Below, piece after piece: positions 19,406-22,205 of a stretch of 22,761 nucleotides of DNA. Numbering within the stretch: position 1 is the first letter of the stretch; each line of letters starts with the position of its first letter. The position numbers were made by a program, and so were the translations under genes. Source of the DNA: a virus; IMG/VR virus record IMGVR_UViG_3300002231_001524, positions 2,646 through 25,406 of that record. One strand, given 5' to 3'. The notes under the pieces were generated by a model, which ran no database searches, was not told the origin of the DNA, and saw only the letters and a list, made by a program, of their open reading frames with translations.

Positions 19406-19626
19406 TGAAAGAGGCAAAGGATAGGTTTTTAAATTTAATCATGGATCATGGCGTAAGTTTAAGTTTATCCGTTGCCTTTTGTTTTGCTATTTATTATATT
19501 GTACACTCTCAAAATGTTGAATTAATGAAAGCAATTTATCAATTAAGAGAAGATAAAAGGCAATTGAGAGAAGATGAAAGGGAGTTAATACAAGATATTA
19601 TTGAATGTTATAAATTAAAAGAATGA
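19405..19626 (+). CDS. small holin-like or spanin-like membrane protein
   Basis: A 73-residue protein with one membrane helix at about 13-33 (GVSLSLSVAFCFAIYYIVHS), then a charged helix (IYQLREDKRQLREDERELIQ) containing a QLRED repeat. A single N-terminal helix plus a charged coiled coil resembles BhlA/UviB-type holin-like proteins. It starts with a 1-nt overlap and overlaps the endolysin start by 4 nt, so it is tightly coupled to the lysin. Alternatively it could be a spanin-type or regulatory lysis factor. Confidence 0.6.
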   Translation: MKEAKDRFLNLIMDHGVSLSLSVAFCFAIYYIVHSQNVELMKAIYQLREDKRQLREDERELIQDIIECYKLKE

Positions 19627-20084
19627 AATTATCAGAAAATTTAAGCGTTAACGAGGTAATTAAATCTAATACAGCCACTAGAAAAGGTATTGACAACCAT
19701 CCTACGCAAGAACATTTAGAAGCCTTAGAAGATATTGCAGAAAATATATTTCAACCGATTAGAGAGCATTTTAAAGTTGCTATTGGTATTAGTTCTGGTT
19801 ATCGGTCAGAGGCTTTAAACAAAGCCATAGGAGGTAGTAAAACGAGCCAACATAGTAAAGGTGAGGCATTGGATTTAGATGCTGATATGTTTGGTAAAAT
19901 AACGAATAAGCAAATATTTGAATTTATCAAAGAAAATTTAGTTTTTGATCAATTAATTTGGGAGTTTGGAAATGATAACGAGCCTAATTGGGTTCATGTA
20001 TCATTTACAACTAGAAGACCTAACAGAATGCAAATATTAAAGGCTTATAAGTTAAAAGGTAAAAATAAATATAAACCAATGTAA
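19623..20084 (+). CDS. endolysin, peptidase M15 (D,D- or L,D-peptidase)
   Basis: A 153-residue zinc peptidase of the M15 (D-Ala-D-Ala carboxypeptidase-like) family that cuts peptide bridges in peptidoglycan during lysis. The metal site is visible: SQHSKGEALDLD gives His77 and Asp84 in the SxHxxGxAxD motif, and NWVHVSF gives His125; Glu114 in LIWEFG fits the catalytic acid. SSGYRS at 57-62 is another family motif. There is no signal peptide, so export needs a holin, and holin candidates flank it on both sides. The length is typical for a single-domain lysin. The gene overlaps both neighbours (4 nt upstream, 1 nt downstream). Confidence 0.9.
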   Translation: MKLSENLSVNEVIKSNTATRKGIDNHPTQEHLEALEDIAENIFQPIREHFKVAIGISSGYRSEALNKAIGGSKTSQHSKGEALDLDADMFGKITNKQIFEFIKENLVFDQLIWEFGNDNEPNWVHVSFTTRRPNRMQILKAYKLKGKNKYKPM

Positions 20085-20530
20085 TGGGAAAATTTAAAGA
20101 AAAAAACGGTAAAACAATGGTTGGTGCTTTTTTACAAAGTGTTGCACCTAATATTATTGATGTTGTTGGAGATGTTTTACCCTCTAATGGTGCTTTAGGC
20201 ATTGTAAAGAACTTAATTCAAAAGGATGATAAGTTAACAGCAAATGAAAAAGTAGAGGCGTTAAGGCTATTAGAATTAGATTTGGAGAATGTTAAAGATG
20301 CTAGAGATATGCAAAAAGAAGCATTGAAGCAAAATGATGTATTTTCTAAAAGATTTTTATATTATTTATCTACTTTCTGGAGTTTAACTGCAGCATCTTA
20401 TTTTTTCTTTGCAACTTTTACGCCCGTTTTAAATGATAAGATAGCAGATATTATTTTAGGCTTTTTGTTGGGTAGTGTTGTTGGAGTAATGATGAACTTT
20501 TTTTATGGAGATAGCCATAAAATGAAATAA
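20084..20530 (+). CDS. holin, 3TM family (gene-transfer-release type)
   Basis: A 148-residue protein. Residues 1-55 contain a weakly hydrophobic helix (VGAFLQSVAPNIIDVVGDVL); 56-85 a charged helix (EKVEALRLLELDLENVKDAR, then MQKEALKQND). Two clear membrane helices follow at about 91-112 (FLYYLSTFWSLTAASYFFFA) and 118-141 (DKIADIILGFLLGSVVGVMM). It ends FFYGDSHKMK, like the conserved ending of the 3TM holin family. It follows the lysin with a 1-nt overlap. It should form the membrane holes that let the M15 lysin reach peptidoglycan and so set lysis time. Confidence 0.8.
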   Translation: MGKFKEKNGKTMVGAFLQSVAPNIIDVVGDVLPSNGALGIVKNLIQKDDKLTANEKVEALRLLELDLENVKDARDMQKEALKQNDVFSKRFLYYLSTFWSLTAASYFFFATFTPVLNDKIADIILGFLLGSVVGVMMNFFYGDSHKMK

Positions 20531-20535
20531 TTTAT

Positions 20536-20543
20536 TATATTTG
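20536..20543 (+). promoter_or_regulatory. -7 promoter box TATATTTG, just after the holin gene
   Basis: TATATTTG is a full TAnnTTTG match starting 6 nt after the holin stop. There is no gene for 240 nt downstream on this strand, and a terminator follows about 40 nt later, so the predicted product is a short RNA. A -33 TTG is not obvious. Confidence 0.45.
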
Positions 20544-20549
20544 TATTGA

Positions 20550-20606
20550 TTTTCTATTTTCGTATTTTTATTTGAAAAGCCTCTCATTTATTTGGGAGGT
20601 TTTTTA
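20550..20606 (+). ncRNA. candidate small RNA 1 (about 57 nt)
   Basis: The stretch from the expected start of the 20536-20543 box to the T tract at 20600-20606 has no open frame of useful size. Its 3' half is the terminator hairpin and its 5' part is a U-rich single-stranded stretch. It may also be just the 3' UTR of the lysis transcript. The call rests on box-to-terminator layout only. Confidence 0.3.
20580..20606 (+). terminator. terminator after the lysis genes
   Basis: The CCTCTCA / TGGGAGG stem (one G-T wobble) with a short A/T loop is followed by a T7 run at 20600-20606. It ends the late transcript that carries tail and lysis genes. Confidence 0.75.
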
Positions 20607-20626
20607 TTGTATAAAATAATTTTTAT

Positions 20627-20634
20627 TATATTTG
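20627..20634 (+). promoter_or_regulatory. -7 promoter box TATATTTG with TTG -33 element
   Basis: TATATTTG is preceded by TTG at 20607-20609 with a 17-nt gap, so both parts of the Bacteroidota promoter are present. It is the best promoter in the window. The next terminator is about 50 nt downstream and no gene is in between. Confidence 0.55.
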
Positions 20635-20640
20635 AATACT

Positions 20641-20710
20641 GATTAATAACATAATTGTACTTGATGTGCAATAACCTAAAACCCGACATCGCCAAAATAG
20701 TCGGGTTTTT
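20641..20710 (+). ncRNA. candidate small RNA 2 (about 70 nt)
   Basis: This spans from the expected start, 7 nt after the promoter box, to the T tract of the second terminator. The first 37 nt are unstructured by eye and the rest is the terminator stem. A 21-codon frame (ATG 20664) runs through the terminator and is not convincing. A short leader RNA or a regulatory RNA is possible. Alternatively the terminator stops readthrough before the early operon. Confidence 0.35.
20678..20710 (+). terminator. strong terminator before the early operon
   Basis: An AAAACCCGAC / GTCGGGTTTT stem encloses a 12-nt loop and is followed by T residues (20705-20711). The stem is nearly perfect and G/C-rich against the AT background. 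It insulates the early operon from the late region. Confidence 0.85.
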
Positions 20711-20727
20711 TATTTTCAATCTTTTTT

Positions 20728-20753
20728 AAAGTAATACTAAAAGTAATACTTTT
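20728..20753 (+). promoter_or_regulatory. tandem palindromic operator AGTAaTACT x2
   Basis: AAAGTAATACT occurs at 20728-20738 and again at 20740-20750, with a 12-bp period. Each carries the odd palindrome AGTA-A-TACT, and the second extends to AAAAGTAATACTTTT (7+1+7). The pair sits just upstream of the promoter box at 20760-20767, where a dimeric repressor or activator would act. A ribbon-helix-helix protein encoded downstream (21966-22205) is one candidate binder. Confidence 0.55.
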
Positions 20754-20759
20754 TTTATG

Positions 20760-20767
20760 TATATTTG
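20760..20767 (+). promoter_or_regulatory. early operon promoter, -7 box TATATTTG
   Basis: TATATTTG lies 23 nt before the ATG at 20791, so the leader would be short (about 15-20 nt). The -33 region is taken up by the second AGTAaTACT palindrome and no TTG is visible there, which fits a promoter that depends on, or is blocked by, a bound regulator. Confidence 0.6.
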
Positions 20768-20790
20768 TACGGTAATCAAAACGTAAAAAG

Positions 20791-21102
20791 ATGGAATTAT
20801 TAGAAATAGAAAATTTAGATTTAGAAAGCAACACTTTAACTGCTGTATTTGACGGCTTATTTTCAGAGGGTTTTATTGTTAAGTCTGATTTTAGTTATGA
20901 TACTGAATTATTAGAAGAAGAAGAAGAAGAAACTAATTGTAAAAATGTTATTGGTGCTACTAATATTAAGTTTTGGGATTTTAAAACTTTTGATAGTCAA
21001 GAAAATGAGATTTCTATAAATGATAGAGAGTTAAAAAAGATTAAGGAATTAGTTGAATTTAAGCTAATTGATTTATTAAGTGATGAATTAAATAATAATT
21101 AA
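20791..21102 (+). CDS. acidic hypothetical protein, first early gene
   Basis: A 103-residue protein with about 27 Asp/Glu against about 9 Lys/Arg. It contains a run of six Glu encoded by (GAA)6 at 20914-20931. A strand region (SNTLTAVFDGLFSEGFIVKS, then KNVIGATNIKFWDFKTFDS) is followed by a helix (RELKKIKELVEFKLIDLLSD). It is the first gene after the operator-promoter, so it should be among the first made after infection. No family is recognised; an anti-host or DNA-mimic role is only a possibility raised by its charge. Confidence 0.55.
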   Translation: MELLEIENLDLESNTLTAVFDGLFSEGFIVKSDFSYDTELLEEEEEETNCKNVIGATNIKFWDFKTFDSQENEISINDRELKKIKELVEFKLIDLLSDELNNN

Positions 21103-21114
21103 AAAATAATAGAT

Positions 21115-21564
21115 ATGAATTTAGAAGATTTAAAAAAAGAAATACCCTTTAAATGGAGGGTGCAAAGTGCAAATCAATACGGGGCAAGTTGTGTTGCTTA
21201 TATTGATGCCAGAGATGTTCAAGATTTACTTGATGAAGTTTGTGGTCCTCAAAATTGGCAATGTAAATATTCAGAACATAAAAACAATTTATTTTGTTCT
21301 ATTGGTGTTGATATGGGCAAAGGTTGGGTATGGAAGTCAGATTGTGGAACTGAATCAAATGTTGAAAAACAAAAAGGAGAAGCATCAGATGCTTTTAAAC
21401 GTGCAGCGGTTATGTGGGGTGTAGGTAGATTTTTATATTCTAAAACTATTGTAAAGTTACCAGCAAAACAAAATAATGGTCGTTGGTTGCCATATTCAGA
21501 AAAAACAGGAAAATTTGTTTATGGAGATAATATAACAAAATGGTGTAATCAATTAAGTAAATAA
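21115..21564 (+). CDS. Rad52/22-family single-strand annealing protein
   Basis: A 149-residue recombination protein that anneals complementary single strands, working in phage genome recombination and repair. Family signatures are RVQSANQYGASCVAYIDARD near the start, EVCGPQNWQCKYSE, a strand CSIGVDMGKGWVWKSDCG, and the diagnostic GEASDAFKRAAVMWGVGRFLY at 88-108. The length is typical of short phage members that lack the long C-terminal region of cellular Rad52. It may work with a host or phage exonuclease, which is not visible here. The ATG follows ATAGAT, a context shared with two other genes in this operon. Confidence 0.87.
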   Translation: MNLEDLKKEIPFKWRVQSANQYGASCVAYIDARDVQDLLDEVCGPQNWQCKYSEHKNNLFCSIGVDMGKGWVWKSDCGTESNVEKQKGEASDAFKRAAVMWGVGRFLYSKTIVKLPAKQNNGRWLPYSEKTGKFVYGDNITKWCNQLSK

Positions 21565-21571
21565 AATAGAT

Positions 21572-21976
21572 ATGATAGATACAGCAAATTTAGTACAAGA
21601 AGTAATAGATGGAAATTTCAGCCCTTACAAGGCTGAATACATAATTAAAGAGCAAATGAACGTTTTAAGCGTACATTTGGAAATAGTGCATACAGAAGCA
21701 CAAAACCAATCAATTTATGAAGATAAAAATTTTGAAAAAGATGGCTTTAAAATGGAGAAAAGAAACGGTAGAAAAGTTTGGAATTTTAAAGGATGTGAAT
21801 CGTATAAAATAGCAAAAGACAATTTAACAGAAATTGAAAACAATCTAAAGGATAATTTCAATCAATGGGAAAAAGGAAATACAGTAGTTAATGAAGATGG
21901 TGTTGTTTTAGAAGTACCAAAAGTAACTTATACAAAAGAAGTTTTAATTATTAAAAAGGTAAAAGATGAAAAATAA
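21572..21976 (+). CDS. hypothetical protein next to the annealing protein
   Basis: A 134-residue protein with an N-terminal helix (MIDTANLVQEVIDGNFSPYK, then AEYIIKEQMNVLSVHLEIVH) and a later basic and strand region (KMEKRNGRKVWNFKGCES). It ends in a strand pair VLEVPKVTYTKEVLIIKKVK. It is encoded 7 nt after the annealase and is likely to be cotranslated. The function is unknown; a recombination accessory role is inferred from position only. It overlaps the next gene by 11 nt. Confidence 0.5.
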   Translation: MIDTANLVQEVIDGNFSPYKAEYIIKEQMNVLSVHLEIVHTEAQNQSIYEDKNFEKDGFKMEKRNGRKVWNFKGCESYKIAKDNLTEIENNLKDNFNQWEKGNTVVNEDGVVLEVPKVTYTKEVLIIKKVKDEK

Positions 21977-22205
21977 ATTTAAAAAAGCAGATGCACAAGG
22001 CAACAGGCTACCAGAAGAAATAGGAAAAGGATTAAACAAAGAACATTTAAAAAAGGTAATGAAAGAAAGCACTATTAAAGATGATATTATTTCTTTTAAA
22101 ATCGAACGTGAAATACATGATAAACTTATACGTGCATCAAATAAATTAAATGTATCTAAATCGCATATTATCCAGGAACTAATTAAAGAATTTTTAGACT
22201 TATGA
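21966..22205 (+). CDS. ribbon-helix-helix DNA-binding protein
   Basis: A 79-residue protein. Residues 1-40 are charged and probably flexible (NKFKKADAQGNRLPEEIGKG). Residues 41-79 fit a ribbon-helix-helix (CopG/Arc-type) domain: strand IISFKIER, helix EIHDKLIRASNKLN, turn VSKSH, helix IIQELIKEFLDL. Such proteins bind short palindromes as dimers of dimers, and tandem palindromes lie at 20728-20753 in front of this operon, so self-control is plausible. It could instead be an antitoxin-like or general regulator. There is no toxin gene beside it. Confidence 0.65.
   Translation: MKNKFKKADAQGNRLPEEIGKGLNKEHLKKVMKESTIKDDIISFKIEREIHDKLIRASNKLNVSKSHIIQELIKEFLDL

Follow-up and report, generated by a model that had tools for sequence, protein, structure and literature searches.

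Two putative miniature noncoding transcription units in series at the late-early junction of a marine flavobacterial phage

The gap between the last late gene and the first early gene of a marine flavobacterial phage contains, with a probability of roughly 0.55, two genuine miniature noncoding transcription units arranged in series and followed by an early promoter. Judged from the DNA, the units are probably real small RNAs, and the predicted unit 1 has a layout which recurs in flavophages. The window, i.e. the whole analysed stretch of 22,761 nucleotides, spans positions 2646-25406 of a viral contig 25,406 bases long. All of its main genes are carried by the plus strand and capsid and tail genes are present; the capsid protein is closest to those of Flavobacterium phages snusmum and hattifnatt (40.6%), and the nearest isolate relatives of the tail protein are also Flavobacterium phages, at about 28% amino-acid identity. 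The late-to-early junction of the window is a gap of 260 nt with the following features and surroundings:

19623-20084, M15 endolysin, a late gene
20084-20530, plus strand, holin-like membrane protein (phrog_1544), the last late gene, directly 5' of the units
20536-20543, plus strand, box 1, TATATTTG, -7 box of the Bacteroidota sigma-A promoter type
20548-20606, plus strand, predicted RNA 1 (about 59 nt), an unstructured U-rich leader and then the terminator hairpin, delimited by box 1 and terminator 1
20573-20606, plus strand, terminator 1, a 14-pair hairpin with T6 found by folding, putatively also the end of the late operon
20607-20609, plus strand, possible -33 element TTG, 17 nt 5' of box 2, in the tail of terminator 1
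20627-20634, plus strand, box 2, TATATTTG
20639-20711, plus strand, predicted RNA 2 (about 73 nt), composed of the 5' segment CTGATTAATAACA, a small hairpin at 20654-20672 and the terminator hairpin
20678-20711, plus strand, terminator 2, a 10-pair hairpin with a 12-nt loop and T6, found by folding
20730-20750, plus strand, two AGTAATACT repeats 12 nt apart, just 5' of box 3, candidate operator or activator site
20760-20767, plus strand, box 3, TATATTTG, putative early-operon promoter, 31 nt before the first early ATG (20791)
20791-21102, plus strand, first early gene (103 aa, no assigned function), 3' of the gap
21115-21564, Rad52/Erf-type annealing protein, early region, next after the first early gene
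21966-22202, CopG/Arc-like small regulator, early region

The exact TATATTTG sequence occurs three times on the two strands of the window, where 3.4 copies are expected by chance, and all three copies are on the plus strand inside this one gap, at 20536, 20627 and 20760. Box 1 begins 5 nt past the stop codon of the holin-like gene. The first-pass annotation, made from the sequence alone, had described two identical boxes at 20536 and 20627, each followed by an intrinsic terminator, and the positions and the folds (z -6.3 and -4.9) were confirmed; the third box had been missed. Since the sigma-A box TAnnTTTG of Flavobacterium occupies -12 to -5 (PMC9723704), transcription would be expected to start at about 20548, 20639 and 20772. 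The two tiny RNAs proposed earlier are still the best reading, nevertheless their lengths become about 59 and 73 nt instead of about 57 and 70 nt, and the first two of these starts replace the previous ones. The TTG-N17 promoter which had been assigned to box 2 is indeed found (TTG-N17-TATATTTG at 20607-20634), but it carries little weight because chance alone would yield 0.87 matches to TTG-N17-TANNTTTG in a window of this size; sequence inspection detected no TTG at N17-23 from box 1. Boxes 1 and 2 lie within a common 16-nt repeat (94%, spacing 91), and an 11-nt repeat is common to the terminator tails of both cassettes; these repeats would fit a duplication or a cassette exchange.

Box 3 is kept in all four relatives which could be aligned across the junction, and in L082 as well. 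Pairs of GTA[AT]TAC with 11-12 nt spacing, in either orientation, stand in the same place in L079, L003, L004 and L082. The AGTAATACT repeats are a candidate operator, perhaps for the CopG/Arc-like protein.

Strong intrinsic terminators follow 44 nt downstream of box 1 and 55 nt downstream of box 2. The stem of terminator 1 has -17.7 kcal/mol (z -6.3), and RNA 2 as a whole has -20.0 (z -4.9); in both cases 0 of 200 shuffles were as good. The palindrome of terminator 2 folds on the minus strand, too. Strong intrinsic terminators were called by a purpose-written scan with a strict cut-off; a generic scan for sigma-70 promoters and terminators listed neither terminator 1 nor terminator 2. Both units end in an intrinsic terminator and are without a translated ORF: in agreement with the earlier statement that there is no gene between the elements, no ORF of at least 60 aa was found on either strand in 20531-20790, where short minus-strand ORFs of 43-52 aa overlap. 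The leader of RNA 1 contains no ATG, and the sole ATG in RNA 2 (20664) would read through the terminator. The leaders of the units, in the window and in the other loci, are T-rich, mostly unstructured and mostly without a start codon; an extra hairpin before the terminator is present in RNA 2 and in a few other units.

The spacing of box and terminator was compared with chance in a pool of 108 non-redundant related viral loci (1.13 Mb). TATATTTG stands 44-56 nt upstream of the hairpin in 10 of the 69 strong terminators of this pool, and at 57-88 nt upstream in none of them. These ten units include close relatives, and seven are left after merging. When the 150 nt upstream were dinucleotide-shuffled in 300 rounds, the count averaged 0.1 and never exceeded 2; the 44-56 nt range was picked post hoc, after inspection of the data. 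With a range of 33-80 nt the box precedes 10/69 terminators of the related viral pool and 6/53 of those from nine flavophage isolates, compared with 4/144 along 800 kb of a Tenacibaculum chromosome and 0/105 among other genome loci. After the merging of relatives the excess over this one host chromosome is significant but modest (7/66 versus 4/144, p 0.04), so ordinary small RNA genes in such bacteria might share this appearance. A chance origin of the boxes was ruled out by the shuffles together with the host and other-genome controls. Perfect TATATTTG boxes are thus enriched 44-56 nt before terminators, and from the sequence they are predicted to function as promoters.

Such a unit was found in six of the nine isolated flavophages, where the box is typically located 1-16 nt past the last stop codon of an operon. 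The distance is 2 nt in FpV9, 3 nt in phage 1/32, 6 nt in P12002L and 34 nt in P12024S; in 11b it is 1 nt, with the terminator 75 nt further on and a stem weaker than the strict cut-off, and in snusmum9-1 the box is within an annotated gene. For intergenic boxes with a downstream terminator, the odds of a stop codon at most 40 nt upstream are 4.3 times those for other intergenic boxes. In five divergent loci (L094, L095, L099, L053 and L003) the unit immediately follows the last late gene and precedes the early genes, as in the window. The first-pass annotation had placed the cassettes at the switch between late and early regions, but similar units stand at other operon ends, too, in phage 1/32 and P12002L. 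At the late-early junction a box is missing in L034, L035, L051 and L054, which have the terminator alone; no unit was detected in the initial 50 kb of either Cellulophaga phage (phi18:3 and phi19:3), in Flavobacterium phage 6H or in a Fusobacterium control phage, and the holin homologues L006-L030 offered no comparable junction.

In close relatives of the window the two cassettes have different histories. Both are present in L005 (99%; L005/L085) and in L079; L003 (85% DNA identity) has box 1 and terminator 1, and L004 (80% DNA identity) has kept terminator 1 with a degenerate box 1, cassette 2 being absent from both. Loss of the boxes with only the terminators kept had been named as an observation that would speak against the RNAs; this is seen in part, in L004 for box 1; L079, L005 and L003 keep box 1. 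Since box 1 of L004 is degenerate and neither L003 nor L004 has cassette 2, this phage group does not conserve the pair as a two-RNA system: the tandem arrangement is lineage-specific, and the putative unit 2 is a lineage-specific addition as far as the alignments indicate. In L079 the end of the holin gene is unrelated (49% identity), and the identity is 100% from box 1 to terminator 1 and 95% from box 2 to terminator 2. The resumption of identity at box 1 means that the units go with the early region and not with the holin gene, so the start of unit 1 is also the start of the conserved block. Between the window, L003 and L004 the terminator 1 stem carries one two-sided and four one-sided pairing changes, a weak sample of three sequences, in which the covariation is not beyond that of shuffles.

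Further details of these relatives were noted. The comparison of L079 701-960 with window positions 20331-20536 indicates a module swap, with a different gene in the holin position and with homology resuming exactly at box 1. The homopolymer runs of L005/L085 (contig 3300002231_002557) are one base shorter than those of the window at several places; this looks like sequencing error, and reading frames such as that of the endolysin may be broken by it. Contig 3300037245_000165 (41.6 kb; L081 and L082) has a copy of the first early gene close to either end, with 84% and 82% identity to that of the window, which could reflect two paralogues or an imperfect terminal overlap.

It is the architecture of the units that is conserved between lineages, and not the sequence of the RNA. 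The best match of RNA 2 among about 300 boxes outside the close relatives is the unit of L099, a partial match of the form TATATTTG-N3-4-CTGATTNATAACA, and this likeness is suggestive at most. An RNA family defined by the 5' end pattern of RNA 2, TATATTTG-N0-10-TGATTNATAACA, was rejected: the pattern matched 39 viral stretches, and all 33 newly fetched ones were without a terminator, so this motif alone is mostly chance. Rfam gave no match in the window at gathering score, and the best one in the gap was far below gathering; the Flavo-1 motif was absent from the gap at E <= 5. A duplex scan against 36 phage start regions returned weak matches and no convincing target, the best duplex being leader 1 with rad52 (z -4.4 among 144 tests of A/U-rich sequence).

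According to the proposed model P1 (20536) would feed into T1, P2 (20627) into T2, and P3 (20760) into the early operon. The host RNA polymerase, carrying sigma-A, would initiate near 20548 and 20639 and terminate at T1 and T2, and the untranslated RNAs of about 59 and 73 nt would be released from the onset of infection. T1 and T2 would also end the transcripts of the late operon; consequently RNA 1 would also form the 3' end of the late mRNA. From this arrangement we infer promoter activity, transcription and the RNA ends, and the predicted RNAs would most likely serve as small regulators during infection. A wider generalisation can be offered tentatively, namely that many flavophages have tiny RNA genes which evolve fast and form a class by their architecture and not by their sequence (a sigma-A promoter 1-16 nt past the last stop codon of an operon, 33-80 nt before the terminator of that operon). 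Their RNAs might be transcribed immediately by the host polymerase and regulate the infection, and the cassettes might be exchanged between phages as modules.

The same elements could be read as additional early promoters, where P1 and P2 serve the early operon through leaky or antiterminated T1 and T2, the output is the read-through and the short RNAs are by-products. All three promoters point in the same direction, in series before the early genes, and lambda pR'-tR' under the control of Q is a precedent; nevertheless box 3 with its conserved repeats is closer to the early genes and is retained by every aligned relative, the folds of T1 and T2 are strong, FpV9 and 11b also have a further promoter-like box 3' of the terminator, and the gap showed no recognisable antiterminator or put-like RNA. 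We consider this reading unlikely. Polymerase loading might also matter by itself, if a promoter in front of the late terminator blocked late-to-early read-through regardless of the RNA produced. The preserved architecture with a changing RNA sequence and the position of the boxes 1-16 nt past stop codons at operon ends would suit such a role, but strong terminators alone suffice in the box-less relatives L034 and L035, and we regard it as very improbable.

Boxes similar to that of sigma-A could arise easily at AT-rich operon ends and be harmless before a terminator, with the tandem copy being neutral. Units are gained and lost among the close relatives, their RNA sequence is not conserved, many phages are without the box, and the host chromosome has some units too. 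On the other hand, the units are about 100 times as frequent as in dinucleotide-shuffled versions of these upstream regions, and neutral arrival should not favour the narrow spacing of 44-56 nt; we consider such a by-product or relic unlikely. The recurrence of the layout in divergent flavophages makes promoter relics, one of the options raised by the first-pass annotation, less likely. Two small RNA units followed by an early promoter remain our preferred explanation.

Short phage RNAs are already known. The lambda 6S RNA (pR'-tR', 194 nt) comes from a promoter which fires straight into a terminator, as predicted here for a short RNA, but it is a late promoter under Q antitermination, whereas the units of the window stand between late and early genes and have a separate early promoter beside them. 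Lambda OOP RNA (77 nt) and P22 sar RNA (68/69 nt) (PMC12197685) resemble the predicted units in being very short phage RNAs with their own promoter and intrinsic terminator; they are antisense to named phage mRNAs, whereas no gene lies opposite the units of the window, and the promoter here is of the Bacteroidota type. Flavobacterium has independent small RNAs such as Rfp18, the targets of which were tested (PMC9723704); they share with our units the sigma-A -7 box of TAnnTTTG type and the intergenic, non-coding location, but are chromosomal and genus-conserved. The main text of that paper does not mention phages (PMC9723704). The Flavo-1 RNA motif of Rfam is likewise a noncoding structured RNA of Flavobacteriaceae, but has no match in the window at gathering score. 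In the literature searched, small RNAs were not reported for phages of flavobacteria or of other Bacteroidota, and the recurring flavophage layout appears to be undescribed there. If the units are expressed, a box followed after 33-80 nt by a terminator behind the last stop codon of an operon becomes a rule which predicts candidate small RNAs, with candidates in the culturable isolates FpV9, 11b, P12024S and P12002L, and Bacteroidota phages would gain a layer of RNA control like that of lambdoid phages.

Two other recurring elements were observed in the pool. L091 (9577), L053 (5191), L084 (1931) and L043 (4917) share, upstream of the early promoter, an element resembling CTTATTGATTTTCAATTAGTTA; it stands directly behind the terminator in L091, L053 and L043, and 800 kb of host DNA contain no copy of its longer pattern. 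The prophage-type loci L060, L061, L062 and L167 (minus strand) have a common TATATTTGTCATCTCTAACGGGTTTATTAATTTAAACTC followed by a terminator, which in L061 and L062 stand upstream of helix-turn-helix regulator genes and could possibly represent a small RNA or an attenuated leader.
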